Assembly: GCA_963920705.1 (NCBI GenBank)
Contig: OY987231.1
Coordinates: 17,585,024-17,649,023, forward strand
Length of the DNA: 64,000 nucleotides
Reading direction: 5' to 3'
Origin: Odiellus spinosus
Lineage: Eukaryota; Arthropoda; Arachnida; Opiliones; Phalangiidae
The translations under genes were made by a program, and so were the position numbers. The notes under the pieces were generated by a model. It was not told the DNA's origin. It made no database searches and saw nothing but the letters and a program-made list of their open reading frames with translations. Position 1 is the stretch's first letter. Every line of letters begins with the position of its first letter. This document shows, piece after piece, positions 11,891 through 64,000 of the stretch.

Positions 11891-11986
11891 TCAGGGGCTA
11901 GTCATCTTTTGAATTATACTCTCTTGGAAAATTGTGAGATTGATTTGAAATTAATTTCACCTACTATAAAATTAGTTTAGTATTAT

Positions 11987-12404
11987 CAGAGGTATATAAT
12001 AACCCCCTTAAGGGGGAAGTATGAAAGCCCCTATACTACCAATGCTAAAAATCACCCACAACAAGAGCCAGCTGCTGACTATCTAGGCCACTAGCTCGCG
12101 CTGGACTTCTCAATGTCGCTACTCAAGTAAATGGTCTTTGTATAAACAAGACGGCTCGATTTGTGTTTAGAACTTCCTGTCTAAGGAGTCAGGCTGTCTG
12201 TTAAAATGGAGTCGAAGGTTGACTTCAGCTCGCAAGTTCCGGAAGTGTGCGTAGGGAAATTTTAGTGAGGTTCAAAATGGTGTAACTATTTTTTGGGAAT
12301 AAAGCGGTGTGTCGATCCGCCGCGATTTACGCCGGGCACTTGTTGTTCGTCGATTTTGCCTACCTTTCATTCTTCCCCCCGAAGGGGGTTATTATATACC
12401 TCTG
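11987..12404 (+). mobile_element. MITE family C, copy C1 (418 bp)
   Basis: Element starting CAGAGGTATATAATAACCCC and ending with its inverse. The terminal repeats are about 41 bp and each contains a small CCCCC-GGGGG palindrome. Perfect TSD GTATTAT (11980-11986 and 12405-12411). The subterminal AACAAGAGC and GCACTTGTT segments also pair in inverted orientation. The interior has a CCGCGATTTACGCCGG block. Only incidental short open frames. Confidence 0.95.
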
Positions 12405-13010
12405 GTATTATTATTACTTTGGGGGAAAACAAACACTATAATCAAAGAAGAGTTGGGAAAACGTAAATTAATGATTAATCTAATTAATAATACATATTTT
12501 GGATTCAAGAATTAAATCTAATTACTCCGATTAGTGTTAAAACAAATACATAAATCATATTCCAAAACTTATTGCGCCAACGGGAGAATATCAAAATCAA
12601 AACTAATATAATAAATTATTTGAAGCTTCGTCAATACAAAGTGTTTTGAAGCAATTCAGCAAAACAAATATATTTACACAATGTCCTGTTGCCAGAAATG
12701 AATAATGGTTGTATGGTAATGAGAAAATAAAATATAAATTAAATTAAGTAAATAGCCGAATATTGGGCATTTAAACATAATACACAGAATGATAAAACTG
12801 TACAAAGATGCAAGCTTCAAAGGGACGGGAAAAAATGAAGTATTTTTTTAAATCATTATTCTTCTAAAAATAAGGGATGCTTGCGAAATAAAACATTTAG
12901 TCTCTCAATTGACTAAAAATCGGATACCTTACGATTTTGGCATTCAATTAAAAGAAGACCCTCCGACCAATCAAAAGACGCCTCATCTTTGCCTTAATAA
13001 AAATCACAGC

Positions 13011-13290
13011 AACACGTTCACACTAGGCCTTGGAATCGATTTAAATCGTTTCTAAACGTTTCGCTAGAGTCGTGTGAATAGAAAACCGACTTATCTCGAA
13101 TCGATTTGATTCGATTTCTCGGGACCTAGTTTCATATTCATTCGGTTTCAACAACCGATAGATAAAGCTACGATATCGATTTATAAAGATAATGCGTGAA
13201 CACGTGACGCTTAAATCGATTCCTGACGATTTGAATATCGGTTTGATTTAACAGTTTCAAATCGATTAAGAAATGCTAGTGTGACCGTAG
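13011..13290 (+). repeat. Repeat D, copy D1 (about 280 bp)
   Basis: Segment rich in ATCGATTT motifs, bounded by ACGTTCACACTAGG on the left and GCTAGTGTGACCGTAG on the right, which form a short inverted terminal repeat. It aligns along its length with both D copies at 20.2-21.1 kb. This is probably a non-autonomous DNA transposon, but I could not identify a TSD, so the exact ends and superfamily are open. Confidence 0.75.
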
Positions 13291-13400
13291 CTTTTGAATC
13301 GTGCTAAATATCGTTCTTGATCATTTTCATGGACACACCCGTGCGTACAACAGCAGGTGTCACGGAAACCAAAGTTAGGGAATCTTTTAGTTAGTCGGAG

Positions 13401-13722
13401 CAGAAGCCGATGAAACCCTCCTTTGAAGTCTATTACTCCCGGGTCTTGTCTACCCCTCTCTGTATGGGTTATTCTCAAAAGGCGCGATCCGTACGCCTCC
13501 TAACGGTAGATGTTTTCGGAGCGGGAGCTCGTCGAGCGAATATCTCTAGCAGCCTTGGAGTTCGTCCAAAAAACGTCGTCGTTTGTGGAGAGAGAGAATT
13601 TCCAATTTTCCGTAGACAGGGGGGATGAAGTAGGACCCCTCGGATCTCGTAAAATTGGGAATTTTACCCATACAGAGAGGAGCGCTATATGGAACTTCAA
13701 AGGAGGGTTTCATCGGCTTCTG
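13401..13722 (+). mobile_element. MITE family A, copy A1 (322 bp)
   Basis: Non-autonomous inverted-repeat element starting CAGAAGCCGATG and ending CATCGGCTTCTG. It is flanked by the perfect 7-bp direct repeat GTCGGAG (13394-13400 and 13723-13729). In the family, the terminal inverted repeat is 39 bp with one mismatch, followed further in by a second inverted pair around CCTCTCTGTATGGGT. The inside holds a GC-rich block with GTCGTCGTTTG and a GA-rich run. The right end of A1 lacks about 15 bp between the GGAAC and TTCAAAGG motifs, so its two ends are unequal. Short open frames exist on both strands but only mirror the conserved DNA. No transposase is encoded, so movement would need an enzyme supplied elsewhere. 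Superfamily unassigned. Confidence 0.95.
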
Positions 13723-14316
13723 GTCGGAGGTTCTTCTTTTAATCGAATAATGAAAATCCGAATCTTTTCCGAGACATTTGGGCGAATGTTTTAATACGCC
13801 AACAAGTCTTATTTTTAATAATCGATAAAGAAATCAAGTCATTTTCTTCTTCACTCTTCCTTTAAAGAATTAAAATTACAACACACCTCTTTCTTATCCA
13901 ACATCTACCGATGAATTTATAGCGAAACATATAATATAAAAAGTTAATTTTCCTAAAAATATTTTAGAAGGATTTAGTATAAGACTATAAGACTTGATGC
14001 AAACCCATTTTTTTTTTTTTTTTTCCTATTATTTTTTTTAACATGGAATTTTTCTTAAATTATTTCAAAGGAGTGACGTTATTTTTTTTTTCTTCCTCGC
14101 GCAAGAAAAATGCTTGCTGGATAATAGAAGAGATGGCTGTAAAGCGAAGCATTATGCAAAGACGATCAGCCTCTTCGAGACTTTATGAATAAATAAGGTT
14201 AAAAATCGATATCTCTTGGACGATGCAGCTAAGAAGAAAGCCGCAACCAAAATTCAACAGTTACTCGCGCTTGTATAAGAAAGATTTTCTTACAGAGGCG
14301 AGAGAAAGGATTTAAA

Positions 14317-14860
14317 GGGATAGCTACAGTACATCATCGTAATTTAATTTAATATACTGTTTTTCAAGTCTCAGTAACACTCGGATAAAGTGCGGAAATT
14401 TTTTTTTAAGATATATTCAGTCTATTTCACTTGTAAAATTTCTATAAAAGTAATTATAAATTCGAGCCAATCATATTATTTAAGCCTTCAAGAGTGCTTG
14501 TATTGTCCTAAGATTGAAACAAGAAGGATCAGATAAGGAGAGGAAAATTGGGGCTGCGTTGAGTTTGAGAGAAGAGCCAACCTCCCACTCGGGTGGAAAG
14601 GGGAGATAGGAAATTCTCGATTTAAACTGTTGTCACGTGGTCGCTAGCTAGCGCGTCTCATAAAGGATTCGTTTTACCCACGTGACAACAATTTACCACG
14701 AAGCATCTCTACCCCCGTCTGTCCCCCGTTCTCCCAGAGTGGGAGTTTAGGCCGACGCAGTAGGAGCCGCGCCGTTCCCACTTTTCCTCTCCTTACCTGA
14801 TCCTTCTTGATTGAAAGAACAGCCCGGCGTTTGATGCCTAAGACTTGAGTTTAAATAAAA
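14317..14860. repeat. T1-related repeat split by B1
   Basis: Left part TTAAAGGGATAGC resembles the T1 end. Then GAGCCAATCATATTATTTAAG and CAAGAGTGCTTG lead to B1, and after B1 GAACAGCCCGGCGTTTGA continues the same repeat. The far end is not clear. Confidence 0.6.
14520..14809 (+). mobile_element. MITE family B, copy B1 (290 bp)
   Basis: Inverted-repeat element starting CAAGAAGGATCAGATAAGG and ending with its inverse. Terminal repeats are about 34 bp. Perfect TSD ATTGAAA (14513-14519 and 14810-14816). A second internal inverted pair has TTGTCACGTGG on one side and CCACGTGACAA on the other, around a CGCTAGCTAGCG palindrome, so the element can fold back almost entirely. No coding capacity. B1 interrupts a T1-related repeat whose uninterrupted relatives lie near 5.7 and 7.0 kb. 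Confidence 0.95.
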
Positions 14861-15213
14861 TTGAATAGAAAATGTTGTTTTGAAATTAAACAATTAAGTC
14901 ATTTTATGGTCACAATTATACTTTATGACAATTAGATAATTTCTAAGTATGACATGAAGTACTCACTAATGTCGCACGCCATAAGCTGGAGGTACCCTCT
15001 TTTACGCGACTAAGATATCTCTCGAAATGATAACTTCGTTAATAGCGCAAGCCTGATATCATAGCGCTGAACTACCAAAGACATCATCTACAACTGTCGC
15101 TGTTAATTTTGCTTTTAACTAATCGTCCCATGCTAATTTTTAGCGGGGGCTTTCGGTAATTTTTTGGTGCTAGTTTTTGTATTGGGGGAGGGAATCCTTA
15201 ACATCTCTGAAAT

Positions 15214-15543
15214 CAGAAGCCGATGAAACCCTCCTTTGAAGTCTATTACTCCCGGGTCTTGTCTACCCCTCTCTGTATGGGTTATTCTCAAAAGGCGCGA
15301 TTCGTACGTCTCCTAACGGTAGATGTTTTCGGAGCGGGAGCTCGTCGAGCGAATATCTCTAGCAGCCTTGGAGATCGTCCAAAAAACGTCGTCGTTTGTG
15401 GAGAGAGAGAATTTCAAATTTTCCGTAGACAGGGGGGATGAAGTAGGACCCCTTCTAACTCGTAAAATTGGGAATTTTACCCATACAGAGAGGAGCGCTA
15501 TATGGAACATTGGAGCTTCAAAGGAGGGTTTCATCGGCTTCTG
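15214..15543 (+). mobile_element. MITE family A, copy A2 (330 bp)
   Basis: Same ends and interior as A1. Perfect 7-bp TSD CTGAAAT (15207-15213 and 15544-15550). It lacks about 8 bp just inside the right terminal repeat (the TAGTAGAC step is missing), a smaller version of the A1 deletion. It lies 1.5 kb from A1 in the same orientation but has its own TSD, so it arose by independent insertion and not by tandem duplication. Confidence 0.95.
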
Positions 15544-16249
15544 CTGAAATTAATGTGTAACAGTTCCTTTAAAAAGGAGCTGAAAATAATATTATACACC
15601 TCTTTTTTTTACTTCGAAGATTTTTTTAAAAGGAGCACTGTACGAGCTTTAGTGTTAAACCATTATAGAGTTTCTTAAGCTTTAAAAAGGGATTAAATCC
15701 CTTTTTTTTCCTATTTCGGGAACATATAGTGTAAAAGATCAAGGAAAATCGAGTTTGACAGATCATTTGTATGGGTATTATACTATTAGGCGAAGGTTTA
15801 ATAATATTGATCGGATTCTCCATTAAATTACAAGAAACTTACTCAGTTAACAAACAAAATCACTATAAGCTTACAATGTTTCAAACGTCTGAAAGAATTT
15901 TCAGCTATTATTCTGTAAAGTAGGTTAATTTCCACAAAGCAGCAATTAATTTTAACTAAACTCAAAGGAATAAGATAGATTTGTGTTTTATATTGTATAT
16001 ATAACTTTTAACTTGCTTTTTTTTTATGAAGATTTCCAGACAAAAGCTAACAATGAAAAGAAAACAGTGGTGCCCATGTGTCTCAATATTAAAGGGAGGC
16101 TATCACTCCAATCGGAAATATCGTTAAAAAACTATTCAAAATAGATACTGTTATTACCATAACAGTAAAAACACATATTTATAATCGCCATTTTAGAAAT
16201 TATTAAAATGAAATTTTCCTACAATACTACGCCATCTAGAGTTGATTCA

Positions 16250-16345
16250 CGCGGGTTCTGGCACGTGATAAGATCGCTTTCGCGCCGTCTTTTTTGTAAA
16301 AGTACTTAATCCAAAATGTTACACCTTTCGTATCAAAATTAATGT
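16250..16345. repeat. Old dispersed repeat H
   Basis: CGCTTTCGCGCCGTC, then TAAAAGTACTTAATCC and TTACACCTTTCG, match the 45.5-kb copy in the same order with many substitutions. Confidence 0.45.
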
Positions 16346-16977
16346 TACGTTTCATATATTGGAAAAAAAAATTGTGGAATTTTCAAATTGACTTACAGAC
16401 ACCGTTTTAATTCGAAATATCATTAAATTTTAAAATATATTTAAGGTTAAAAAGGTTCCATTTCTTTATAGGCATATTTTATTACAAGTGACACTGCAAT
16501 GGTAATTATGAAAAACAGGCGGAAGTAGCTTCGAAACTATTCGCCAATAAAAACAACAAAGATCTTTTGGAATAAGCCCGGATTAGAAGGCTCGGCTCAG
16601 CCAATCCCGTACACTCTTCTAATACCTTCAATTTATCGCGTTAAGCTGCTCTAGCTAATTCCCAATGGTTTATTCTAAGCTCCATCCCATTCTCGCCGGA
16701 AAATTCTAGACTCCAGCGTATCGGTTAATCCAGGACAATTGGAATCGTTTCGGGGGAGTGTAGGGTTTAAAAGTGCATAAAGCCAGTAAATAGACTATGA
16801 ACCAGGATTTTGAGTTTATTTACGTTTGAAATATACTAAGCAATATTCTAATGGGTGGGGGGAATCCGATTTAATTGCGGTACAGGAATTAAGATTTCGA
16901 AGGTCACTGCAGTAATAATAATAACACAGTTACAAATTTCATTCAAGCCTGTTGATACTATTTGGTACGCCCATCAC

Positions 16978-17315
16978 CAGAAGCCGATGAAACCCTCCTT
17001 TGAAGTCTATTACTCCCGGGTTTTGCTTACCCCTCTCTGTATGGGTTAGTTTCAAAAAGCGCGATTCGTACGCCTCCTAACGGTAGATGTTTTCGGAGCG
17101 GGAGTTCGTCGAGCGAATATCTCTAGCAGCCTTGAAGTTCGTCCAAAAAAACGTCGTCGTTTGTGGAGAGAGAGAATTTCCAATTTTTCGTAGACAGGGG
17201 GGATGAAGTAGGACCCCTTCTAACTCGTAAAATTGGGAATTTTACCCATACAGAGAGGAGCGCTATATGGAACATTGGAGTAGTAGACTTCAAAGGAGGG
17301 TTTCATCGGCTTCTG
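16978..17315 (+). mobile_element. MITE family A, copy A3 (338 bp)
   Basis: Full-length copy with intact ends and perfect TSD CCATCAC (16971-16977 and 17316-17322). It carries the TTAGTTTC variant near the left end together with the GGGGGGATG and TTCTAACTCG variants to the right. That combination is mosaic compared with the other copies. Confidence 0.95.
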
Positions 17316-18514
17316 CCATCACTTAAAACTAGCCAAAAATGTCATCACCTCTGTTTGCCTCGAGTGATTTGGACTCTTCCTCGATATTTTGAGTCGGGAA
17401 AGAGGGACGGAATTTAGGCGGGCCGCGCTTGGTTATATTGTCTTCCCTCAACTCCGGAATTGCTCCGATTTCACTATTTACATGCCGTTAGATATGGTTT
17501 TATTAAATTTGCAAAATATATATATATATATATATTTCAAGAGCATCTGGCGCAATATTTTTGTGTTCATTGTAAATATGAATTGTCGCTTTTGTAAGTT
17601 TCGCACTCTCTCGCGTTGTGACGTTAAGCCATTTTAGCGAATAGCGGTCATTCAGCTGTGAATATTATCCATTTCCCGATAACTTAATTTCGCATAAGCC
17701 ATTTTTTATAGTAAATATCATTTATAATCGCAGTTTAAACCAAGTGTTAACGATATTTCATAAGTCTTATCACTCAAAAACTATTTCCCCGGGAAAACTA
17801 AAAAAAAATTTTAACTGGATTTGCAAAAATAATAAAATCACAGGCCCATACCATAGCCATGCAAAGCAAAGAGCCTGAAAATTTGAAAAGCAAATTTTCA
17901 TAAGTCTAGACTTGAAGGGGGGATATTTATATATATATATACATATTTTTGGTTTTCTCTTCTTTACGCTTCCGTAGCACCTTATTTATTAAAACAAGCA
18001 GCAGCTCCTCAGTAAGAAAACATGCAGGGAAGTAAAGAGTACAAGAAAAAAAAAAAGATATTCTGCCGACCTCGTTTCGCGTTTTCTTTCCTCATTCTTA
18101 TTTCTGTCTAGTTTTATTTAAAGTGCAAAGGATATTGGTAGCTGGTTCCTCTTTGCTTTTTTTTTTTACATAGTTCATTACCCAGAAATATTAAATTTGA
18201 AGTTCTTTACGAATACACGATCTTCTAAAACTGATTCGAGAATTACGAAAGAAACGGAACAAATTTAAATCATTAAAAAAACGACAAGATATAAATTTTC
18301 ATTTACAGGCTATGTACTAGCCACTAGCCCACTACCCTTCTAAAACTGACGGACTTAAACAAATGTAGAGTTTTAAATTATGTGGCATAATCATATATGT
18401 AATATTTGATTTAGTAAATTTATTTTTGTTCAAGTTATTTGTTTGTTAAACGCTATAATCTCCAAATCGCTAAACCATATTCAAATATAGTTCATCTAAA
18501 AGGGTTCTATAGTT

Positions 18515-20168: not shown

Positions 20169-20339
20169 GCTGCGTTCATACTAAGTCTTGGACTCGATTC
20201 AAACCGTTTCGGGAAACCGTTTTTCTTGAATCGATTTGATTCGATTACTCGAAACGGCTTCGGGAACCAGTTTCAAATCGATTCGGCTACAACATCCAAC
20301 AGATTAAACTATAATAAATCGGTTTATCAAGATAAAATA
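20169..20339 (+). repeat. Outer repeat D, left part
   Basis: Forward D sequence from GCTGCGTTCATACT to AAGATAA, matching the first part of D1. It breaks off where the inverted inner D begins. Its continuation is at 20971-21069. Confidence 0.75.
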
Positions 20340-20970
20340 GCTAGGGTCACACTAGTATTTCCTAATCGATTTGAATTGGTAAAATCAAACCGATCGCCAG
20401 GAATCGTTTTATGCGTCATTATGCTCACGCATTATCTTTATAAATCGATTTATTGTAGCTTCATCAGAAGCCGATGAAACCCTCCTTTGAAGTCTACTAC
20501 TTTAATGTTCCATATAGCGCTCCTCTCTGTATGGGTAAAATTCACAATTTTACGAGATCGGAGGGGTCCTACTTCATACCCCCTGTCTACGGAAAATTGG
20601 AAATTCTCTCTCTCCACAAACGACGACGTTTTTTTGACGAACTCCAAGGCTGCTAGAGATATTCGCTCGACGAACTCCCGCTCCGAAAATATCTACCGTT
20701 AGGAGGCGTACGAATCGCGCTTTTTGAAACAAACCCATACAGAGAGGGGTAGACAAGACCCGGGAGTAATAGACTTCAAAGGAGGGTTTCATCGGCTTCT
20801 GGCTTCATCTATAGGTTGTTGAAACCGAATCGGTATGAAACTGGTTCCCGAAGCAGTTTCAAGAAATCGAATCAAATCGATTCGAGAAAAGACGGTTTAC
20901 CGTTCACTCGTCTCTAGCGAAACGTTTTGAAATAGTGTAAATCGATTTTTTGGCCTAGTATAAACGCAGG
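20340..20970 (-). repeat. Inner repeat D, inverted, interrupted by A4
   Basis: Reverse-oriented D copy from CTAGGGTCACACTAG to CCTAGTATAAACGCAG. Its 287 net bases, after removing A4 and one TSD, match the inverse of D1 throughout. It splits the outer D between positions equivalent to AAGATAA and TGTGAAC. The TSD is not clear by eye. Confidence 0.75.
20465..20801 (-). mobile_element. MITE family A, copy A4 (337 bp), nested
   Basis: Full-length family A element in reverse orientation, with perfect TSD GCTTCAT (20458-20464 and 20802-20808). It sits inside an inverted copy of repeat D, which itself lies inside another D copy, so it is the youngest of three layers. Removing A4 and one TSD restores sequence matching D1 at 13.0 kb. 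Confidence 0.95.
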
Positions 20971-22285: not shown

Positions 22286-22623
22286 CAGAAGCCGATGAAA
22301 CCCTCCTTTGAAGTCTATTACTCCCGGGTCTTGTCTACCCCTCTCTGTATGGGTTAGTTTCAAAAAGCGCGATTCGTACGCCTCCTAACGGTAGATATTT
22401 TCGGAGAGGGAGTTCGTCGAGCGAATATCTCTATCAGCCTAGGAGTTCGTCAAAAAAACGTCGTCGTTTGTGGAGAGAGAGAATTTCCAATTTTCCGTAG
22501 ACAGGGGGGTATGAAGTAGGACCCCTCCGATCTCGTAAAATTGGGAATTTTACCCATACAGAGAGGCGCGCTACATCGAACATTAGAGTAGTAGACTTCA
22601 AAGGAGGGTTTCATCGGCTTCTG
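22286..22623 (+). mobile_element. MITE family A, copy A5 (338 bp)
   Basis: Full-length copy with perfect TSD GTATACC (22279-22285 and 22624-22630). It shares private variants with A6 (CTATCAGCCT and GCGCGCTACATCGAAC), so A5 and A6 form a sister pair. Confidence 0.95.
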
Positions 22624-25419: not shown

Positions 25420-25837
25420 CAGAGGTATATAATAACCCCCTTCGGGGGGAAGTATGAAAGGTAGGCAAAATCGACGAACAACAAGTGCCCGGCGTAAATC
25501 GCGGCGGATCGACACACCGCTTGACTCCCAAAAAATAGTTACACCATTTTGAACCTCACTAAATTTTCCCTACGCACACTTCCGGAACTCGCGAGCTGAA
25601 GTCAACCTTCGACTCCATTTTAACAGACAGCCTGACTCCTGAGACAGGAAGTTCTAAACACAAATCGAGCCGTCTTGTTTATACAAAGACCATTTACTAG
25701 AGTAGCGACATTGAGAAGTCCAGCGCGAGCTAGTGGCCTAGATAGTCAGCAGCGGGCTCTTGTTGTTCGTGATTTTTAGCATTGGTAGTATAGGGGCTTT
25801 CATACTTCCCCCCGAATGGGGTTATTATATATCTCTG
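25420..25837 (-). mobile_element. MITE family C, copy C2 (418 bp)
   Basis: Reverse-oriented copy with exactly the length of C1 and roughly 14 differences by eye (about 97% identical). Perfect TSD CTGTTAT (25413-25419 and 25838-25844). The similarity implies recent spread of this family. Confidence 0.95.
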
Positions 25838-31062: not shown

Positions 31063-31398
31063 CAGAAGCCGATGAAACCCTCCTTTGAAGTCTATTACTC
31101 CCGGGCCTTGTCTACCCCTCTCTGTATGGGTTAGTTTCAAAAAGCGCGATTCGTACGCCTCCTAACGGTAGATATTTTCGGAGCGGGAGTTCGTCGAGCG
31201 AATATCTCTATCAGCCTTGGAGTTCGTCAAAAAAACGTCGTCGTATGTGGAGAGAGAATTTCCAATTTTCCGTAGACAGGGGGGTATGAAGTAGGACCCC
31301 TCCGATCTCGTAAAATTGGGAATTTTACCCATACAGAGAGGCGCGCTACATCGAACATTAGAGTAGTAGACTTCAAAGGAGGGTTTCATCGGCTTCTG
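31063..31398 (+). mobile_element. MITE family A, copy A6 (336 bp)
   Basis: Full-length copy with perfect TSD ATTTAAA (31056-31062 and 31399-31405), sister to A5. It lies about 50 bp from a short dispersed repeat (31015-31040) that recurs inverted near 11835-11860. Confidence 0.95.
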
Positions 31399-36297: not shown

Positions 36298-36633
36298 CAG
36301 AAGCCGATGAAACCCTCCTTTGAAGTCTACTACTCCAATGTTCCATATAGCGCTCCTCTCTGTATGGGTAAAATTCCCAATTTTACGAGTTAGAAGGGGT
36401 CCTACTTCATCCCCCCTGTTTACGGAAAATTGGAAATTCTCTCTCTCCACAAACGACGACGTTTTTGGACAAACTCCAAGGCTGCAAGAGATATTCGCTC
36501 GACGAACTCCCGCTCCGAAAACATCTATCGTTAGGAGGCGTACGAATCGCGCCTTTTGAGAATAACCCATACAGAGAGGGGTAGACAAGACCAGGGAGTA
36601 ATAGACTTCAAAGGAGGGTTTCATCGGCTTCTG
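36298..36633 (-). mobile_element. MITE family A, copy A8 (336 bp)
   Basis: Full-length reverse-oriented copy with perfect TSD ATATTTT (36291-36297 and 36634-36640). Near-twin of A7, 1.2 kb away and inverted. The pair could form a long cruciform or be a substrate for inversion. Confidence 0.95.
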
Positions 36634-39205: not shown

Positions 39206-39542
39206 CAGAAGCCGATGAAACCCTCCTTTGAAGTCTACTACTCTAATGTTCCATATAGCGCTCCTCTCTGTATGGGTAAAATTCCCAATTTTACGAGATC
39301 AGAGGGGTCCTACTTCATACCCCCCTGTCTACGCAAAATTGGAAATTCTCTCTCTCCACAAACGACGACGTTTATTGACGAACTCCAAGGCTGCTAGAGA
39401 TATTCGCTCGACGAACTCCCGCTCCGAAAATATCTACCGTTAGGAGGCGTACGAATCGCGCTTTTTGAAACTAGCCCATACAGAGAGGGGTAGACAAGAC
39501 CCGGGAGTAATAGACTTCAAAGGAGGGTTTCATCGGCTTCTG
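39206..39542 (-). mobile_element. MITE family A, copy A9 (337 bp)
   Basis: Full-length reverse-oriented copy with perfect TSD CTTTTAC (39199-39205 and 39543-39549). It belongs to the subgroup with GGGGTATGAAG and the GATCTCG-type variant. Confidence 0.95.
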
Positions 39543-39549
39543 CTTTTAC

Positions 39550-40881
39550 TTAAATGCTGATACCATCCTGGTCAATTTTCAAAGAAAAATAATAAAGCAT
39601 TTGATCTAAAAAGTCGCGAGCAGCGCGTATTAGCGGGTCTATAGATTAATCATTTTCGAAACTGCCTATTAAGCCCAGTTTATTTTAAAATTAAAATAGA
39701 AGCGATACACGGAAGAATCGTCTAAGCCAGAGTTTCCTTTAGCTCCCGAGGGAATCTATACGCTCCGAGCGTATATGGTGGTAAAGGAGTAATCAATCCC
39801 TTTACGCGCGTAAAAACAATAAACCTAAAATTAAGGCGAATCGATTGACGGGGAGAGGAGAGGAGACGAGACGAAGCGGAGTTTCGAAGCAAAGAGCTAA
39901 GCTTTATAGCTGCCTAAAATTCGCTATGGCAACCTTGGCATTCTCGTCTCGGCGGGGAACCCTTTTCATTTTAGAAGATTATAATGGGAGATGAGGATAC
40001 GGGGCCTCTAGTTTGGAGGAGGAAGGAAAACTGGATGGAGTCAATTAGGGCCCGGTCGCATTGGCTAAAGGCATAGTTTGAAGTGTACGTTACGAGTTTC
40101 ACTATCACAACATTTCGAGCTTTAAGAAAAGCATACGCTTTTCCTGAACTCGAGAATAATTTTAAAAATTGCGAAAGCTTAACTGCTTATCTATAACGTC
40201 AATTTAAACTTACTGTTCACATGAACGCCAAGAATTTATTAATTTTATTGAATGAATAAAAAAAATCTATTGGTGGAGCCAAATAACCTTAATTTTCAGA
40301 GTTCCCTTGTTGATGGTTCCATGCATTTGAGAAGACCCCTTTGAAGATTTCAATCATTTATGCAATAATTATTTCGCTACCTACACTTTAAAGCTATTTT
40401 AGCAATGCCGTAAAGGACCGAGTCTTGAAAAAAAAATCATTGACAAGCTCTCGAGTCTTTTATAGGAAAACCGCGTTCCAGGTGGTCCTCGGCTGCGTTT
40501 GAAACAACGAGATGAAGTGCCATGTTGGTGTAGGAACGAGGGAAAAAAACTGCTATTAGAAAATTTGAATTTATCTATGGGCTGATAGAATATTTCCCGA
40601 TACGCTTTTAGAACGAGACTTCTAGATAACGGTTAATGAAAATCAGTTTTTGATAGTCAATTACGCGGAATTAACCAGTCAAATATTTGATTAAATGTTT
40701 AAGGTATTACACAAATCCTGCATTTAGTAATTATAACAAAAAGTTGACCCATTTCTTTAAACTATAGATCGTGAGGTTTCAGACTAGATATTTCCCTCAA
40801 AGAAATTTTATTGGCTGGATATATCACGTGTCTGCAAAATCAGTTTTCTACGGGCAGAGGCTAGCCATAGCGGGATATTAC
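39550..40881. other. Non-coding stretch between A9 and F1
   Basis: CpG-containing block at 39600-40060 with the hairpin at 39757, then AT-rich unique DNA. No gene. Confidence 0.5.
39757..39775. repeat. Perfect hairpin TATACGCT
   Basis: TATACGCT-CCG-AGCGTATA, an exact 8-bp stem with a 3-nt loop, in a CpG-containing stretch. Confidence 0.5.
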
Positions 40882-41189
40882 CAATAGATAGAAATTCATC
40901 CGATCGACAAAGGGTCCTTTGGATCGAAATTTATCTGATCGACAGTGTGTCTCATTTGATCGACGGGATAGCCCCATTTGATCGAAATTTATTTGATCGA
41001 CAGTCTCTCTCGTTTTTTAACAATAGATAGAAATTCATTCGATCGACAAAGGGTCCATTGGATCGAAATTTATCTGATCGACAGTGTGTCACATTTGATC
41101 GACGGAATAGCCCCATTTGATCGAAATTTATTTGATCGACAGTCTCTCTCGTTTTAATTGAGATGCCGTGACCCGTTGCCCGAAAGGGT

Positions 41190-41232: not shown

Positions 41233-41300
41233 CGTGAAAATGGTGTGTTAAATAATCGAAATTATTTGGTTAATATATAAAATTATTGCGTTTTGTAGGG

Positions 41301-41333
41301 TTAGGTTAGGTTAGGTTAGGTTGGGTTAGGTTA
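41301..41333 (+). repeat. Interstitial (TTAGG)n
   Basis: Six to seven units of TTAGG with one TTGGG variant, inside F1. This is the insect-type telomere unit. Its position inside a dispersed element, matched by the same tract in F2, argues that it travels with F and is not a fused telomere. Confidence 0.85.
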
Positions 41334-41788
41334 TTAAATTAATTTTAAAAATACTTAATATTGCATGGATTTAAAAATCGATAGGTTTTAAATTAACTAA
41401 TCGATTTTTAAATCTATGCAGTATCAAGTCTTTTTGAATTTTATTTGATATTTTCGATCATTTGGTTCTGCATGTCGATCCAATGGTACTTCATATCTAT
41501 TCCACTCAATCTTTTTTAACTGTCGATCATTTGAATCTTCTTTTTGTAAGTGTCGATCATTTGGTTCTGCATGTCGATCCACTGAATTTCGATCTAATGG
41601 ACCCTGTGTCGATCAAATGAATTTCGATCCAATGGTACTGCATGTCTATTACTTTCAATCTTTTTTACCTGTCGATCATTTGAGTCTTCTTTTTTTAAGT
41701 GTCGATCATTTGGTTCTGCATGTCGATCCATTGAATTTCGATCTAATGGACCCTGTGTCGATCAAATGAATTTCGATCCAATGGTACT

Positions 41789-45608: not shown

Positions 45609-46120
45609 GGTCCACTTGATCGACTCCCAAATGATCGACAAGAGGTCCACTTGATCGACACCCAAATGATCGACTCACAATTGATCGACTCCCAAATGAT
45701 CGACAAGAGGTCCACTTGATCGACTCCCAAACGATCGACAAAGGGATCAAATGATTGATGCCTAATCCCAAATTACCGACAACAAAGGGTGCATTTGATC
45801 GTTTCCCAATTGGTCAACTTCGTAATAACGATTATAAATAGATTAACCAACCTAACCTAACCTAACCTAGCCTAACCGACAAACGAGTACTCTGACCCCA
45901 TTTTCACGGAATAATTATTATTTGAATTAGTTCTTATTTATATACCATAATTTAACCTTTAATAGTTTCTTGCAAAAAAACTTTGACCTATACTCGTTAC
46001 TCGCTAAAAAACTGGGCTGTCGATCAATTGGAATGGCTTGTCGATCAAATGCGAGTCGATCAAACGGTAGTCGATCAAACGGACTCCTTGTCGATCAATT
46101 GGAAGTCGAGCAAATGAACC
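45609..46120 (-). mobile_element. Repeat element F2 with inverted TGATCGAC end arrays
   Basis: The left array alternates CTTGATCGACTCCC and AAATGATCGACAAG. The right array (46018-46118) has the inverse, GTCGATCAATTGGAA and GTCGATCAAACGG. The core has (CCTAA)n at 45851-45876 and CCCATTTTCACGG, the inverse of a core motif in F1, so F2 lies in the opposite orientation. Both elements are followed on the right by TAAGCC. Confidence 0.7.
45851..45876 (-). repeat. Interstitial (CCTAA)n
   Basis: About five units of CCTAA with one CCTAG variant, inside F2 and in the opposite orientation to the tract in F1. A shorter match (CCTAACCTAACC) occurs at about 10389-10400 without an F element. Confidence 0.85.
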
Positions 46121-48172: not shown

Positions 48173-48506
48173 CAGAAGCCGATGAAACCCTCCTTTGAAG
48201 TCTACTACTCCAATGTTCCATATAGCGCTCCTCTCTGTATGGGTAAAATTCACAATTTTACGAGTTAGAAGGGGTCCTACTTCATACCCCCTGTCTACGG
48301 AAAATTGGAAATTCTCTCTCCACAAACGACGACGTTTTTGGACGAACTCCAAGGCTGCTAGAGATATTCGCTCGACGAACTCCCGCTCCGAAAACATCTA
48401 CCGTTAGGAGGCGTACGAATCGCGCCTTTTGAGAATAACCCATACAGAGAGGGGTAGACAAGACCCGGGAGTAATAGACTTCAAAGGAGGGTTTCATCGG
48501 CTTCTG
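48173..48506 (-). mobile_element. MITE family A, copy A10 (334 bp)
   Basis: Full-length reverse-oriented copy with perfect TSD ATCTCAG (48166-48172 and 48507-48513). Its variants are mosaic: the left-end type of A1/A2/A7/A8 with the GGGGTATGAAG type of A4/A5/A6/A9. Confidence 0.95.
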
Positions 48507-49324: not shown

Positions 49325-49597
49325 CACGAACTCATAAGAACTTATGGAACGAAGCATTGATCTCTGGTACCATCCTCGCCTACTGTCTAGCCAAAATTCG
49401 TCTGCTATTTCGCTTTTTTACACATCTGGTGGTTCATTTTACTCCCGAGGCTAATTTCCTAAGCCTTGTTGTTTTTCACCAATAGTTTCGAATCTTATTA
49501 TATTAATTTTGATTTAAAACTTTTAGAAAAATCTATATCAAGTATTTTACGACAGGTTTAGAATATTTTTGCTACCATGTATTCTTATGAGTTCTTG
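49325..49597 (+). mobile_element. MITE family E, copy E1 (273 bp)
   Basis: Bounded by CACGAACTCATAAGAA and TTCTTATGAGTTCTTG, with TSD ATAATAT (49318-49324 and 49598-49604). The interior carries CTCTGGTACCATCCT and AAATTCGTCTGC motifs shared with E2 and E3. The arms are more diverged than those of A-C, so the insertion looks older. No coding capacity seen. Confidence 0.8.
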
Positions 49598-51073: not shown

Positions 51074-51388
51074 CAAGAATTCATTCAGGTTCCATAAGAA
51101 TATGGGAGGGCCGCGATTCAATAACCATCCTCCCAAACTTTGTAGCAAAGTTCGTCCGCTTCGAATCGATTTTTCAAGTAAATCGCTCCTGACATCTATT
51201 ATTAACCCGCGCCACTAACGACCTTGACATAATATTTTGGGTAATAAAAATGGAGCCGACCGAAAAAAGATCTAAGCGTACAAATGTTGAGAAAATTGCA
51301 GACGAACTTTTGTTACAAAGTTTGGGAGGATGGTACCAGAGGCTAAAGCTATGCTCCCATATTCTTATGGAACCTGAATGGATTCCTG
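51074..51388 (-). mobile_element. MITE family E, copy E2 (315 bp)
   Basis: Long fold-back. The arms contain a perfect 26-bp inverted match (51083-51108 against 51354-51379) and, further in, CCATCCTCCCAAACTTTGT with its inverse. The outer ends are CAAGAATTC and GGATTCCTG. TSD GTATTAT (51067-51073 and 51389-51395). The CTCTGGTACCATCCT block links it to E1. Confidence 0.85.
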
Positions 51389-54712: not shown

Positions 54713-55004
54713 CAAGAAGGATCAGACAAGGAGAGGAAAAGTGGGGACGGCGCTGTTCCTACTGCGTCGGCTTAAACTCCCACTCTGGGAGAACGGGGGT
54801 AGAGACGTTTCATGGTAAACTTTTGTCACGTGGGTAAAGCGGATCCTTTATCAGCTTCGTAGTAGTCGACGACGCTAGTAACCACGTGACAACAGTTTAC
54901 CTCGAGAATTTCCTATCCCCTTTCCACCCAAGTGGGAGGTTGGCTCTTCTCTCTCTCTAACTCAACGCAGCCCCACTTTTCCTCTCCTTATCTGATCCTC
55001 CTTG
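54713..55004 (-). mobile_element. MITE family B, copy B3 (292 bp)
   Basis: Reverse-oriented family B copy with perfect TSD AGTTTGG (54706-54712 and 55005-55011). Between the two CACGTG motifs, the usual GCTAGCTAGCG palindrome is replaced by an unrelated stretch around TCGTAGTAGTCGACGACG. Confidence 0.95.
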
Positions 55005-55011
55005 AGTTTGG

Positions 55012-58000: not shown

Positions 58001-59208
58001 GGAGACGAGCTACGAGCTTATAGAATCCACATATACAGTCTCCAACTCTTTCTAAATCGTCGTACCGTCGATGACTTTTTGGAAAAAAATATATATATAT
58101 AATAAAAAAATATAAACAAGATGTAACTTGAAGAATGTCTTTGCTGTATCGCTGATATGTTGCCCTTTTTGAACTTGGACAAAAGACCTAACTATTTCCA
58201 AAGAATGCGAGAAATCTTGGTCGTACAAAAAAATAAGATCCCGAATCCCAATGAATTCGGATTTCTAATTATCAAATTGCTTTCTGACGTCGGTTTTGAC
58301 CTGGGTTTGTTTGCTGGATTTTGCTTCATTACTATCTATTACCTAATTACTATCTATTACCGTATTAAGCGCTAATTTACCTGATTCACAAAATTATTTA
58401 AATTTGAATTTTTTTATTTTAAATACATAATTCCTCTTTCAAACGCTTCAAATTTCTTATTTATGACTAAACAAAACATACACTCGTAAAAAAGCAATGT
58501 TTTTCATAATAGGTTTGACCTTTTGACTTTGCATTGACCGAGAAAAGTGACTCAAATATGAAAAATGGCATTAACATGTCCTTAACGGCGTCAAAGCCAT
58601 GTAGACGTTATAAAACGTTAAGCTTTGACTCTTATCTTTTTGCAGTTTACTTTTAAATTATATATCAAAATGTATTCAAATTAGGCTTAACTTTACGAGC
58701 TAGAAAATCAATTTTATAGGATCCTGATGAGCAAGTTAGTGTGAGTAAATTATTGGCCAAGCTTTGCCTTTGAACCCATTCTGTCAAGCCTTGCAAAAAC
58801 ATATATGGATAAAAATTTGAATATCTAACGAAGATAAAGCTAAAGAATGAATAAACAAAGATGATTTAAATGAGTCTGTAAACAATAGATCCAAAATAAA
58901 CCACTTTCTTCATGAATGCTGAAAGCCTTTATAATGTAGAGGTATCAATAGGAGAAATACTAGAGTGTCGATTAGATACAGCTGCTGCCATGATGGAGTA
59001 ACGATACTAGTCTGAGAAGAGCAACATGTTTCGATTTATTGAAAGTATAGCAACAGGGTAAGTCGAAATCGAATTATAGATCGATCTACGAACCCTGAGA
59101 TGGACAGTTGGTGCCGATGGTCACCAACCGCATCTCCAGTTACATGAATTCATTTTATTAGAAATTAAAACATGTTTTACTTAGTCAGTATGCCACCTGA
59201 TACGAAAA
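55012..59208. other. Non-coding stretch between B3 and B4
   Basis: GA tracts at 56602-56643 and 57953-57998. The frames at 55334-55713 are short and unrecognised. 57120-57230 repeats TTGAACC/TTGAATTC-like motifs loosely. Confidence 0.5.
57953..57998 (+). repeat. (GA)n microsatellite
   Basis: Interrupted GA run. GAGAG motifs bind GAGA-type factors in insects, but nothing local shows such a role. Confidence 0.9.
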
Positions 59209-59215
59209 GTCAAAC

Positions 59216-59496
59216 CAAGAAGGATCAGATAAGGAGAGGAAATGTGGGGACGGCGCGGTTCCTACTGCGTCGGCCTAAACTCCCACTCTGGGAGAACGGG
59301 GGTAGAGACGTTTCGTGGTAAAATGTTGTCACGTGGGTAAAACGAATCCTTTATGAGACGCGCTAGCTAGCGACCACGTGACAACAGTTTACCTCGAGAA
59401 TTTCCTATCCCCCCTTTCCACCCGAGTGGGAGGTTGGCTCTTCTCTCTCTAACTCAACGCAGCCCCACATTTCCTCTCCTTATCTGATCCTTCTTG
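59216..59496 (-). mobile_element. MITE family B, copy B4 (281 bp)
   Basis: Reverse-oriented family B copy with perfect TSD GTCAAAC (59209-59215 and 59497-59503). Both internal CACGTG motifs are intact. Confidence 0.95.
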
Positions 59497-59503
59497 GTCA
59501 AAC

Positions 59504-62500
59504 TAAAGAGCAAGTTTTAGTTTTGCTCTTTAAGCAAAATAAACTTAGTATCAAAAACTACTAATATTCTAAAAATTTCATTTCTATAAGAAAACCTAAA
59601 AATTAAGGATTCCGGCATTCTAATTTTATCTTAATGTCAAATTACTAAAATATTTACGGAATCATAAATGGTATAAATACAGAAAATTAACTGAGTTTAA
59701 TTTTAAGTGTGTTCGCTAAATTTAAGCTTCTTATCTAATCTTACTAATAAGGATTACGGGTAAAATAAAATCACCAAAGTTAAACAGGTAACAAATCTAG
59801 CGTATTTAGGACACGAAATAAGATGCGCTAAGTGTCTGTCCCGATTTACCACGTCGCGCTTAATTAAACGCGTAATTCTTTTTTTATTCTTATATATGTG
59901 GTACATTTCTTTTAGCGTACTTTTCCAGCAGCCACGTCTGTTAGATTCAGCGTATAGCAATGGCTGTAAATGGACGTACGAGGAGAGCGTGATTCGTAAG
60001 GCCCTTAGAATAGTGGGCGCTCGCCCCAGTCGCTGCGTTTCCGAATGCCAGAAGGGAGGATTAAGCGTTCACGCACGACGGACCAGTCTCAAACTGGGCA
60101 TAAAAAAGGCGAGATGAGGAATAAAAGGGAGACAGGGATACCCATTCTTTAGTCCTTGTCACTATAACGTTTCAGAACGTAAAAAGATACGCTCCCATTT
60201 ACCTACATCTATGATTTTATTCCTTACGCATCGAGAGATTCGAGACCCTAGCCTTACAATCGCTGATATTTCAAGCTGAATCCGATTGTATATCGTAGTA
60301 GTAAGGAAAAAAGGGGGTAAAATTGAGGGGATCTGGCGATTGGAAGCTCGAGAGAATGGTGATGGAATCGCCGCTTCGGGGCCATTGGGGCGCCCGCAGT
60401 CGCTACGCCAAAAGTCGAGCTATAGTCGTTCAAAAAAGGAGGAAATCCAAAATAGAACAAAGGTCCGAACCCGACTATTAAAAGGGAACCTATCGTCTAA
60501 CTCTTTTTCACACCCGATACCCCCACCGCCACATTTTCGCGTTTACCGTGCCAAGAATTTGGGTTATCGCTTATCGGTTTTTCGTAATTTCTAAAGGCGG
60601 GCTATTTTCAAATCATTTGCTTGATAGAACCTCTTCAAGATGTTCGGAATATTTTACGAGAGAGAGTGAGAGACTAAAACATATAATGGAAAGTAACCTA
60701 AAGCAATCGTATAATCTTGAAGTTACCTCGAGGCTCAAGTAAAAACGTTAATTGTTATTCTCCTTATCAAAAAAATTAACTGAGAAATAGCGAAACCTTT
60801 GCACCCATGAATACGCAATGTTAAAATTCGAAGGAGTAAGAATTTTCCCAAAATACGAGAATAAAAAATAATGGTACACTATATCTTTAAAGAAAAATCT
60901 CTACAAAATATTAACATGGAGATATTATCATTTTCTGGAATAAGTACTTTCATGAAAAAGACCACGCGAAAGCTCAAAACATTTATCTTCCGATAAATCC
61001 ATTCCCATTTAACTAAATTATCTGAATTTACAAATTTAATTTTTTTAGTCATACATAATTATAATCCAACTCCGAGCTATAGTGTTGCAGGCTAGAAAAC
61101 AATTACTACGCTTTTCAAATATTTATATTTAAACATAATACAAGCTCACTTTTGTTTTAAGAAACGCACAACAATTGAAAAGAAAAATAACTTTTCATGA
61201 TCATCTTTTTTTTACACAAACCCTTCAAGACTTAAAACCCATTTGCGCAAATGTACGCGCGAACCAGAAAATCCCTAAAAGCAGTCGAAAATTCCCATTT
61301 CATATCGCGATACACTCCTCTATACGCAAACGAAATAAAAAAAGCAAAAACCCAAAATCCCAAGAAACTAAAACATAAAATTGTAAGACCCTAAACATCA
61401 GCAAGCTCTCCATACTCTCGCGGCGTGGTATGTTAAGAGAATGCGTGACGGGAAAGAGAGAAAATCGCGCCTCGGTTTTAGGCGAATTGGTTAAAATATG
61501 TTCCAAGGAACTCTCACCTTCTCTTCGGGCAAAGTTTAATGTCTTGTCTAGGCCTTTACGACCATCTAAGAGAGCTATTCGTCACAAAAAAAGGAAAAAG
61601 AAAATGGAGCGATGCTAGGGAGAGGGCAAAAGCGTCCCAAAACCCTATAGGCCTTATATTTCTCGACTCTTCCTCTCGCGCTTCTCTCTACAACGCGGAG
61701 CATCTATAGGAATATATACGTACTACTTTTTCGCTACGGAGATTAACACTCTTATTCCTCCGCCGAATCATAATATCTTATACCATCTATAAATATAAAG
61801 GTTCTTATATCTTTATATATATATACGAAAAGTACAAAACGGTCAAAATACTCTCTGGGACCATGGGGACTCTAGACGCGCTCTCTCTGAGCGTTCATGG
61901 TTTTGAAGGGAGTATAAAGAGGAAAAACAATTTCGTTTTTATTAATCGTTTCTTTTACCAAAACATTTAACTCGCTTCTAAACTACTTATAAACTTTTGG
62001 TTAATTTCCAGAACAATACTTTAAGAAAAGTATTCGAGTGTTAGACTAATCAAAAGATGCACTCTCTTTGAATCAATAATAATAACTTGATCTTAGAAAT
62101 TACGTGTAGCTTATTAGTATTTCGGTTCAATTATAAATATTTTTCAATCAGTTTTTGGTATCGTCTTGAATCATTTAAATAACGGAAAGGCAATTTATAT
62201 AATTGCCAAAAATACGAAGAAACATAATGTATTGGCGCATCGAACCAAACTAATCGGGTTACATTCCCTTTCAAATCCTCCCTTAATTATAATCAAACAT
62301 TATATTACTTCAAGAATAAAACTATGATTAGTAACACGTAAAGGCATAGAACATATCTAAATAGATCTTTGTTTGCTAATAATTATAAACTACAGACAAT
62401 TTATAATATTTAACTCGAATAGTTTCAAGTCTGATTTCATAGTAAAATATACACCCCATTTGTAGTTTGGCGCTCCCTTGAAATAAGGGATGCGCGCGGA

Positions 62501-63934
62501 GGAAGAGTTAAAAATCGATGGAGACACTAGGAAAAGTGTTAGATGGAAAACAGCGCCATTAAAAGGTAGCATTCGAGCTATACTAGAAGAAGAAGAAGCT
62601 ACTCTCTCTCTGGAGCGCGGCATCCATGCATTTTTAATGGTTCTTGAATAGGGGGGGAGGATTTCGTTTATAGCCTTTCGTGTTTGGGAGATGGCTTGGG
62701 CTAACCCTATATCCGTCCATCCCACCCCCGCAATAATACGAGCATAGTATCACACCCAACGTCCCTTTCCCATTTAAGAGTGGCGGGGCAATCTCTAGCC
62801 TTTTTTACGGTGCCTTATTTTGCGCCTCGGAATTACAGCGGGGGAGGTGGGAAAATAAGGACAGGAATCTGGTTTACAAGGAGACAGAGGACTGCTAAAG
62901 GTATAGTATACGTTGGACTATTAGCGCTTTCAAAAGGTGTTCTCCCAAAAAACCGACAGATCAGATTTTCAGTCATGCATGGCTACAAAACCTCTTCCCA
63001 CTAATCAACGACATCAAAGAAGATCCATTGTATTAATCAGGTAATGTATTTAATAGGTCAACTACTAAGCGCCATTACGTGATGGTTGGAACAGCGTTTT
63101 AGGAGGGAGGATATTTTCGCTCTCATCTAACCCCGGCAAGAAAGCTTTGCAAGGTGTTACACGAGCACTTTATCTAGAAGAGCCCCCAACTAAAGCGCGC
63201 TTCTAACCCTCATGTAATGACTTTCAACTTGTTTTGAGTACCAACGCAAATCTTATTAGAATATTCGGGGATTCTTTTTCGTAAGCCAATTTCGGTATTT
63301 TTGGTATGATTTTGTGGCTATTACGAAGAAATCTTCCTAAATCAAAATACTTCGTGAGACTTGCTCTTTAAGGGATTTGTATCATCTGAGTAGAATGCTT
63401 GAAGAAGGAGGATGGGTGTTTAAATTTACGCGGATGAAAAACTTCGTTTTCCTAGAAAATGCTAAGTAAGAATTCGGCGAAACGTATACTGAGCAAGAGG
63501 GGATGTATACTTGAACGCTGGATAAACGAGAAAAACCCAAACCATATCCTTCATTCGAATACCGACTTAAGCTATATCTTTTTCAGCTATTTGTACTTTC
63601 GTTAATTCGTACAAACAAAACACCGAGATCTAGATTCTTGGAATCCCAAATGAGATAAAATTCCAGCAAACTATCCGCTCTGATAATTTCCAAAAGGTAT
63701 TTTAAAGTCCTTCATTAATGAAAAGGGTAATAGGTTAAATGAAAAGAAAAATCAGTGTTTGAAAGAAAAAAATAACTGCTGATATTTGCTGTTTAATAGG
63801 CCTAATGACGTCATTACTGAATACCCGACTTTATATTTCTTCTAAGCCAATGAACAAATTATGTATTTTTCCACTTCAAAACTTCAAAAAATATATATAT
63901 AAATAAGTTAGCTGCAATATTTCAAACATTTTAC
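59504..63934. other. Non-coding stretch between B4 and B5
   Basis: CpG-richer at 59.9-60.5 kb and 61.4-61.9 kb. At 59896-60117 a 73-codon frame is preceded by a pyrimidine run and TTTCTTTTAG, like a splice acceptor, but the peptide matches no family I know. Nothing else can be assigned. Confidence 0.45.
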
Positions 63935-64000
63935 CAAGAAGGATTAGATAAGGAGAGGAAATGTGGGAACGGCGCGGCTCGTACTGCGTCGGCCTAAACT
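63935..64000 (-). mobile_element. MITE family B, copy B5 (cut by window end)
   Basis: The first 66 bp match the start of B4 (CAAGAAGGATTAGATAAGG, then the GGCGCGG and CTGCGTCGGCC motifs). The rest lies beyond the window. The 7 bp before it are ATTTTAC, the predicted TSD. Confidence 0.9.

Follow-up and report, generated by a model that had tools for sequence, protein, structure and literature searches.

The window analysed here, a stretch of 64,000 nucleotides of contig OY987231.1 of Odiellus spinosus (assembly GCA_963920705.1), carries 18 complete miniature inverted-repeat transposable elements (MITEs), each of which begins with CA, ends with TG and is flanked by an exact 7-bp target site duplication (TSD). 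They fall into families A (10 copies), B (2), C (4), D (1) and E (1), and an extra copy of family C, from 63935, is cut by the right end of the window. Positions in the window, irrespective of strand, are as follows:

11987..12404, family B copy 1, 418 bp, TSD GTATTAT
25420..25837, family B copy 2, 418 bp, TSD CTGTTAT
13401..13722, family A copy 1, 322 bp, TSD GTCGGAG
15214..15543, family A copy 2, 330 bp, TSD CTGAAAT
16978..17315, family A copy 3, 338 bp, TSD CCATCAC
20465..20801, family A copy 4, 337 bp, TSD GCTTCAT
22286..22623, family A copy 5, 338 bp, TSD GTATACC
31063..31398, family A copy 6, 336 bp, TSD ATTTAAA
34717..35052, family A copy 7, 336 bp, TSD GCATGAG
36298..36633, family A copy 8, 336 bp, TSD ATATTTT
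39206..39542, family A copy 9, 337 bp, TSD CTTTTAC
48173..48506, family A copy 10, 334 bp, TSD ATCTCAG
14520..14809, family C copy 1, 290 bp, TSD ATTGAAA
42756..43036, family C copy 2, 281 bp, TSD ATTAGGA
54713..55004, family C copy 3, 292 bp, TSD AGTTTGG; reads as the putative joined ends of P element C2:22247948
59216..59496, family C copy 4, 281 bp, TSD GTCAAAC
49325..49597, family D, 273 bp, TSD ATAATAT; kin to E
51074..51388, family E, 315 bp, TSD GTATTAT

More specifically, we scanned the window for exact 7-mer direct repeats with a spacing of 60-12,000 bp, requiring the 16 bp on their inner sides to be inverted repeats of each other at 13 or more positions and excluding low-complexity ends. 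Of the 19 matches, 18 are the CA...TG elements, and the remaining one (61119-62140) is AT-rich with other ends. The same scan with 6-, 8- and 9-mers gave 44, 6 and 2 matches, none of them CA...TG in the frame of the repeat; in particular, no CA...TG element with an 8-bp TSD was found, and both 9-mer matches are two of the 18 MITEs with the frame shifted by one base. Ten first-order Markov sequences of 64 kb yielded 0-2 matches each, none CA...TG, under a laxer complexity filter that returns 20 matches in the real window. These results confirm the initial annotation of this DNA, which had described 18 complete elements with CA...TG ends and a perfect 7-bp repeat.

The elements are short (273-418 bp), with short terminal inverted repeats (TIRs). 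Over the first 30 bp, 28-30 TIR positions match, except in D, where the match is lower (22/30), and the longest similarity between ends, in E, covers about 90 bp at 80%. The elements had been sorted into four families unlike each other inside. This description stands for all families but D and E, which are 76% identical across 79 bp and give the sole cross-family match at E ≤ 0.01; the earlier fourth family seems to combine these two. The tRNA and Rfam searches of the window returned no match, and 100 frames scanned against Pfam, out of 273 in the window with at least 55 amino acids, gave 13 weak single matches, none of them convincing (best E = 0.003).

Copy number and TSD length in the genome

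Ends of types A and B, searched as 21-mers with at most one mismatch, occur 22,866 and 4,471 times in the genome, compared to 0 for the control, in which the pattern was read backwards. Ends of types C and E, searched exactly with one flanking base restricted, occur 2,409 and 836 times (control 0). Assuming two ends per copy, family A is present in ~11,400 copies.

For TSDs outside the window, we used the first 100 listed places of each family. For B, 24 of 28 pairs have an exact 7-bp TSD and the other four, compared by eye, differ at one position, with none longer. For C, the TSD is exact in 31 of 32 pairs, the other having 3 mismatches in 7, and a further copy in locus L087 has a 7-bp TSD as well. 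Six E pairs were among the places listed; letters were obtained for five, all with an exact 7-bp TSD (5/5), and two of these five are inverted duplicates of one another. TSDs of A with both ends come from the window copies, 10/10 at 7 bp. The initial annotation had named TSD lengths other than 7 elsewhere in the genome as evidence against its reading; the lengths of B, C and E do not refute it.

Target-site motif

Insertion sites display a symmetric NTNNNAN motif common to the families. Compared to a baseline of 10.2% of window 7-mers, the motif is found at 11 of the 18 window MITEs, and at 51/100 (A), 51/68 (B), 22/62 (C) and 43/69 (E) sites in the genome-wide sets. These counts include 68 of 72 B elements (four mismatch pairs excluded), C rows after exclusion of six of seven with identical flanks, and 69 of 75 readable E rows, second ends and one duplicate pair being excluded. 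The TSD columns of B read (A/G)TA(A/T)TA(G/C/T), near the Galileo GTANTAC, with weaker preferences in A, C and E. A T at position -3 is favoured by A, B and C, and less by E.

The ten P elements of this genome that have 7-bp TSDs (described below) carry T at position 2 and A at position 6 in 15 flanks out of a total of 20, two per element; T at position -3 is not enriched in them (8/20 flanks). As the second and second-last bases of the hAT target pattern, nTnnnnAn, are likewise T and A, the motif alone cannot tell superfamilies apart.

P transposases of the genome and their TSDs

The P transposase domain (PF21787) is abundant, with 386 candidates in the genome, the best 150 of which were scored. 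RNase H and GTP-binding domains were present in all six P proteins scanned and THAP in two of them, and all four P proteins tried matched the structure of the Drosophila P transposase, 6p5a (E = 2e-5 to 1e-29).

We examined the ends of 27 P loci. Ten have TIRs and an exact 7-bp TSD (L032, L033, L012, L017, L025, L021, L049/L099, L058/L102, L059/L103 and L079/L105), four have 8-bp TSDs, one has unmatched flanks and 12 gave no TIR pair. P elements with 7 bp, a possibility raised in the initial annotation, therefore exist in this very genome. Ends are CA...TG in seven of the ten, the other three lacking the CA start, and the ten elements have ten different TIRs and fall into two separate subgroups on the transposase tree. 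G at position 5 is found in 9/10 of their ends and is absent from A, C, D and E ends. The four insertions with 8-bp flanks come from three families, so P in this genome is not always 7 bp. L008 and L068 are single insertions, and each could be 7 bp with a chance match.

A further P family of this genome also has MITEs. This family, with end CATAGAGGGTAGAAA, has 13 pairs of ends 212-584 bp apart, and two further pairs, 4,613 and 4,770 bp, enclose a P domain; 94 of the 150 scored P places were used in this comparison. One MITE of the family was read and has an exact 7-bp TSD. It thereby provides a second precedent. In the CATAGAGGG family, one full P copy was read (L086/L107), with TIRs and unmatched flanks.

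A probable parent of family C

Family C probably arose by internal deletion from a P element of 5.8 kb that is still present in the genome. The probable parent is the P-transposase locus C2:22247948, of which we read a part, the leftmost 104 bp, the left TSD and the RNase H stretch lying outside. The P domain (C2:22247948-22248397) sits in an open frame of 786 amino acids with no stop, and a THAP domain lies upstream, in L055 (E = 1.6e-10). The right terminus of the element, in L100, lies at base 22,251,192 and reads CAAGAAGGTTCAGACAAGGAGAGG in the inward direction; this side matches bases 1-128 of C copy 4 at 89% (E = 1e-45) and bases 1-133 of C copy 3 at 86%. On the left, bases 1-54 of L055 align at 89% with bases 105-158 of the reversed C copy 3 (E = 2e-16). 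Taken together, these matches indicate that bases 1-133 and 135-188 of C copy 3 derive from opposite sides of a single element of ~5,847 bp. The 7 bases beyond its right end, CTTTAAA, fit NTNNNAN, and the closest relatives of its THAP part among those compared (L049, L058 and the L012 group) are all of the 7-bp kind. No TIR pair was found at L055/L100, because the left end of the element is outside the piece compared.

C sequence flanking a P gene on both sides would also be expected if a P element had inserted into an old C copy, in which case the locus would not be the parent. In that case, C sequence should be duplicated over 7 or 8 bp and inverted ends of the P type should be present at the inner junctions of the locus. 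Neither is seen there, which disfavours nesting; we regard it as unlikely. The left junction is blurred by two further short inserts nearby, which have CAGGGACG ends. A second locus, C9:1783351, was considered as the C parent since a C-type end, CAAGAAGGATCAGACAGG, adjoins a P transposase there. It was rejected: the P element begins about 40 bp further in, with long TIRs from TAGAGT and 8-bp flanks GTCCCAAT.

Search for parents of the other families

Among the compared loci, a subset of the 386 P candidates, we found no element combining A, B, D or E ends with a transposase. A comparison of the 18 window MITEs with all read loci except L001 returned C matches only, apart from a truncated A and a D fragment in L039. 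The latter locus (C1:512561) was tried as a longer A element. It holds 97-118 bp of A followed by unique sequence, and a genome search with the next 1.5 kb revealed no second copy, only an internal 160-bp repeat being matched among the best 40 of 2,727 candidates; we therefore consider it a truncated A. Longer relatives of E were sought as a parent in a genome search with the element, and none appeared: the best 40 of 1,049 candidates are full-length or near full-length E copies, 98-100% identical. Lastly, P loci L003 and L004 contain a string resembling B, CATAGGTATAAAATAACT, which proved to be internal. The true ends of these loci are CATAGATATATG, and two insertions have 8-bp TSDs.

Origin of the MITEs

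We conclude that the window MITEs are, with high confidence, P-superfamily MITEs, presumably moved by the P-type transposases of this genome with a 7-bp stagger, family C being probably derived from a P element. This conclusion is drawn from the shared ends, the 7-bp TSDs, the target motif, the P elements with 7-bp TSDs, the probable parent of C and the further P family that has MITEs. Families A-E most likely represent a 7-bp, Galileo-like kind of the P superfamily and not an unknown superfamily. We infer that A, B, D and E are also moved by P transposases, probably of more than one 7-bp lineage.

Under the proposed mechanism, P-type transposases encoded elsewhere in the genome (with THAP, an RNase H-like catalytic domain and a GTP-binding insertion) would bind the short inverted ends, excise the MITE and reinsert it by cuts staggered by 7 bp, at a target of loose symmetry in which positions 2 and 6 are T and A. 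Gap filling would then produce the exact 7-bp direct repeats. The chemistry of excision and stagger is presumed here by analogy with the Drosophila P element.

The initial annotation had interpreted the common signature as the work of one transposase, possibly of a little-described lineage. That ends, TSD length and target preference point to one kind of transposase is upheld, P fitting best. A single enzyme for all four families is not: the ten 7-bp P elements differ in their TIRs, subgroups and CA start as set out above, and the compared loci hold no transposase with A, B, D or E ends. The autonomous partner suggested as a check was obtained for C only, as a probable P element. The lineage is little described only in part, with 7-bp TSDs published for Galileo (PMC4168063, PMC2775673) and P-derived MITEs for Anopheles gambiae (PMC1562414).

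An origin of A, B, D and E, though not C, from a hAT branch making 7-bp instead of 8-bp duplications appears improbable. hAT transposases are abundant in this genome (best 150 of 220 candidates scored, with several multi-copy frames of 850-980 amino acids), the CAGAG start of B agrees with CAGNG, the usual end of hAT elements, and hAT targets likewise favour T second and A second-last. However, two of the four hAT loci read have identifiable ends, CAGTGGCGCCGCCAG, with 8-bp TSDs (the other two gave no ends), these four 5-kb loci match A-E only in short chance stretches, and for C, whose signature is the same, the probable parent is a P element. It is more improbable still that some or all of A-E belong to a different or undescribed superfamily with 7-bp TSDs, such as Dada, for which the initial annotation gave 6-7 bp; the lack of a parent for A, B, D and E among the compared loci would be in keeping with it, but P elements of the same genome give the same signature, have MITEs of their own and include the probable C parent. 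Equally implausible is a chance likeness of families from different superfamilies, each happening to give 7 bp: their ends differ and, D/E apart, they share no sequence at E 0.01, but a single TSD length in 18/18 window MITEs and in B, C and E elsewhere, CA...TG ends and two favoured target positions are common to them.

Comparison with known systems

The canonical Drosophila P element has CA...TG ends, as A-E do, and differs from them in its 8-bp TSD. It has a 31-bp TIR and a transposase with THAP, RNase H and GTP-binding domains (PMC7776569). For Galileo, a member of the P superfamily in Drosophila, published work describes 7-bp TSDs (PMC4168063, PMC2775673) with the consensus GTAGTAC/GTATTAC, a symmetric target and a P-type transposase (PMC4168063, PMC2775673, PMC3573991). 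A-E resemble Galileo in TSD length and target symmetry. In contrast to the short elements described here, Galileo has very long TIRs, ranging from about 300 bp to 1.2 kb, and its annotated copies number 191 and 170 in two species (PMC4168063, PMC2775673, PMC3573991), compared to the ~11,400 estimated for family A.

The P-MITEs of Anopheles gambiae are likewise short, with P-element ends, in a genome with full-length P elements; they have 8-bp TSDs, unlike the 7 bp observed here, the largest family has 310 complete copies, and every P-MITE family is tied to a P subfamily, whereas here only C is tied to P, in part (PMC1562414). Copy numbers here exceed those listed for Anopheles P-MITEs in that paper (PMC1562414). 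Our search of the openly licensed literature found no description of 7-bp P-type MITEs. Taken together, TSD length, motif, a probable parent and a P family with its own MITEs connect a number of highly abundant MITE families with a known transposase superfamily.

TSD length on the transposase tree

On a transposase tree built on about 130 amino acids, 7-bp and 8-bp P elements separate within one genome. Support for the split is weak (77/79 and 73/82) and long branches meet. The canonical Drosophila P transposase falls on the 8-bp side, also with weak support. We tentatively hypothesize, as a reading somewhat less probable than its opposite, that P transposases split once, long ago, into 7-bp and 8-bp branches, the stagger being a heritable property of the enzyme, and that several 7-bp lineages here gave rise to all the high-copy CA...TG MITEs of the window. 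This split, a side result of our analysis, may matter more than the MITE assignment. Because 7- and 8-bp P elements separate on the tree and the structure of an 8-bp enzyme (6p5a) has been solved, the spacing of the two strand-transfer sites is testable by comparing the two groups.

MITE families and their target site duplications

A direct-repeat scan recovered 18 complete MITEs in the window, all of which start with CA, stop with TG and carry exact 7-bp repeats on both sides, as the initial annotation had accurately described (18/18). The same scan found no 6-, 8- or 9-bp repeats flanking a CA...TG element in the window, although two of the 18 additionally score as 9-mers if shifted by one base. 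The same kind of scan applied to ten Markov sequences returned no CA...TG elements.

MITE features of the window (identities are for best aligned stretches >150 bp)
C7 (contig OY987231.1) 17,585,024-17,649,023: the window; source genome, 443 Mb
Family A: 10 elements, 322-338 bp; identity 90.5-98.5% (45 pairs)
Family B: 2 elements, 418 bp each; identity 96.7% (1 pair)
Family C: 4 elements, 281-292 bp, including copies C3 (54713-55004) and C4 (59216-59496); identity 82-98% (6 pairs)
Family D: 1 element, 273 bp
Family E: 1 element, 315 bp
63935-64000: a fifth C copy, of which the window includes just the left end

Among the window elements compared, the only similarity across families is between D and E. 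E copies outside the window are 98-100% identical to the window E (40 scored of 1,049 candidates). Inverted copies of another repeat (13061-13700, 20236-20920) contain A copies 1 and 4; this repeat may itself spread A to new sites.

Genome-wide, we counted 22,866 A-type ends, 4,471 B-type ends, 2,409 occurrences of the exact C pattern and 836 of the exact E pattern. Among the first 100 matches listed per family, both ends were present for 28 B elements, with exact 7-bp repeats in 24 and 7 bp with one mismatch in the other four; 31 of 32 C pairs had exactly 7 bp, the remaining pair differing at 3/7 flank bases; and E gave six pairs, five of them with letters, all five with 7 bp (two of these being inverted duplicates). 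For A, the target site duplication (TSD) data come from the window copies; A matches listed elsewhere gave one end only. Other TSD lengths, proposed at the outset as evidence against a single transposase, did not appear for B, C or E outside the window. Seven C ends on contig C1 share an identical 11-bp flank, CTTAGCTAGAT, indicating one C copy multiplied within another repeat.

P elements with 7-bp TSDs

A genome-wide search for the P transposase domain PF21787 gave 150 scored matches of 386 candidates, and both ends were examined for 27 P loci. Terminal inverted repeats (TIRs) together with an exact 7-bp TSD were found in 10 of the 27, most TIRs being about 30 bp long (CAGAGAGAATTAAG is 14 bp, with an indel after that).

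TIRs of the 7-bp P loci
First five: CATAGACTAAGAACGG, CATAGACAATAAACAG, CATCGACAAACTACTA, CACTACCTCCTCTATA, CATAGCCGCCTAAATT
Other five: CARAGAAAATATACCC, CAGAGAGAATTAAG, CGTTGCCTACGTTAAT, CGGTGCCTCCGAGATC, CTTGGAGGAAGTATG

Four of the 27 insertions (loci L008, L068, L003 and L004) have an 8-bp TSD. L003 and L004 are two independent insertions of one P family, which coexists with 7-bp P families. L068, with TIRs well over 100 bp, is similar in structure to Galileo but differs by its 8-bp flanks. No TIR pair was found at 12 of the 27 loci, among them L055/L100, the probable C parent. hAT transposases are abundant as well (150 scored of 220 candidates); two of the four hAT loci read have CAGTGGCGCCGCCAG ends and 8-bp TSDs, and no ends were identified at the other two. 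As far as sampled, 7-bp TSDs are a P-element property in the O. spinosus genome. The possibly little-described transposase lineage suggested initially is unnecessary as an explanation.

Fourteen P RNase H domains of this genome were placed in a tree, in which one branch (77/79) separates the ten 7-bp rows from the four 8-bp rows, shuffled labellings being as low in 0 and 1 of 500. In a second tree, to which the Drosophila P transposase was added and from which L004 was dropped, being identical to L003, the Drosophila protein groups with the 8-bp side (73/82; shuffled labellings 1 and 4 of 500). The Drosophila P element has an 8-bp TSD (PMC7776569). These weakly supported trees, which have long branches, hint at a separation between the 7-bp and 8-bp kinds.

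A probable parent of family C

Sequence comparison of its right terminus and 54 bp of its left side points to a P locus on contig C2 as the probable parent of family C. Its P domain (C2:22247948-22248397) lies within an open frame of 786 aa, with a THAP domain upstream in L055, the left side of the locus; the THAP part of the gene is closest, among the loci compared, to L049, L058 and L012, each a 7-bp P locus. On the right side (L100), the terminus CAAGAAGGTTCAGACAAGGAGAGG (reading inward) lies at base 22,251,192; over the adjoining 128-133 bp on its inner side, identity is 89% with C4 and 86% with C3, and CTTTAAA directly follows the right end. On the left, L055 bases 1-54 match reversed C3 bases 105-158 at 89%. 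C3 would then combine 133 bp from the element's right end with 158 bp from its left, of which 54 bp were compared.

A P element inserted into a C copy is the less preferred reading, because the inner junctions of the locus show neither a duplication of C sequence nor P-type inverted ends. For the same reason we prefer to regard family C as a probable deletion derivative of the C2 element. The 5' part of this probable parent also contains two inserts, both adjoining the left C match.

L055 55-297 and ~318-556: 240-bp MITE, two inverted copies side by side, with CAGGGACG ends

The first insert has 8-bp repeats, CTCATAAA; past it lie a few more C-type bases (CTCATAAAGG), and then C similarity ends.

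MITEs of a further P family

Genome-wide counts of the end CATAGAGGGTAGAAA are 76 plus 78. Among the 100 matches listed, 13 pairs are spaced 212-584 bp, and two, spaced 4,613 and 4,770 bp, both enclose P domains. Two more P domains carry the same 5' end, at a distance of 1,635-1,655 bp in all four. A single MITE of this family was read, in L054, and its TSD is exactly 7 bp. The only complete P copy read, L086/L107, is the remaining one of the 27 P loci and has TIRs but unmatched flanks.

Taken together, A-E are most likely P-superfamily MITEs of the 7-bp kind, present in high copy number, with more than one P lineage as mover. For A, B, D and E, we infer movement by P transposase from the P-like signature. 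No transposase-bearing element with A, B, D or E ends was found among the loci compared; the parents may be among the other P loci, may have ends that diverged too far, or may have been lost.

Target preference

The 18 window sites have T at position 2 in 14 and A at position 6 in 14, and the symmetric motif NTNNNAN is present in 11/18, versus 10.2% of all 7-mers in the window (p = 2e-7). Beyond the window, among the matches listed, it occurs in 51/100 sites for A, 51/68 for B (without the four mismatched pairs), 22/62 for C (without six of the seven same-flank rows) and 43/69 for E (without second ends and one duplicate pair). A T three bases outside the TSD is favoured by A, B and C and less by E; that no G appears at the outermost flanking base is an artefact of the search pattern. 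Because hAT targets also prefer T at the second and A at the second-last position, the motif is not used as a main argument. The A-E motif resembles the GTANTAC target of Galileo (PMC4168063).

Other repeats in the window

Several further repeats were observed.

40878-41155, 41469-41788 and 45609-46117: tandem arrays with units of 139, 149 and 35/65 bp, based on TGATCGAC/TGTCGATC motifs
41299-41333: seven GGTTA units, that is (TTAGG)n, chromosome-internal
5853-6707: inverted-repeat element, 855 bp, with 8-bp flanks TTTAGAAA

(TTAGG)n, the arthropod-type telomere repeat, is also present in the genome locus L074. The 855-bp element is unlike the CA...TG kind.
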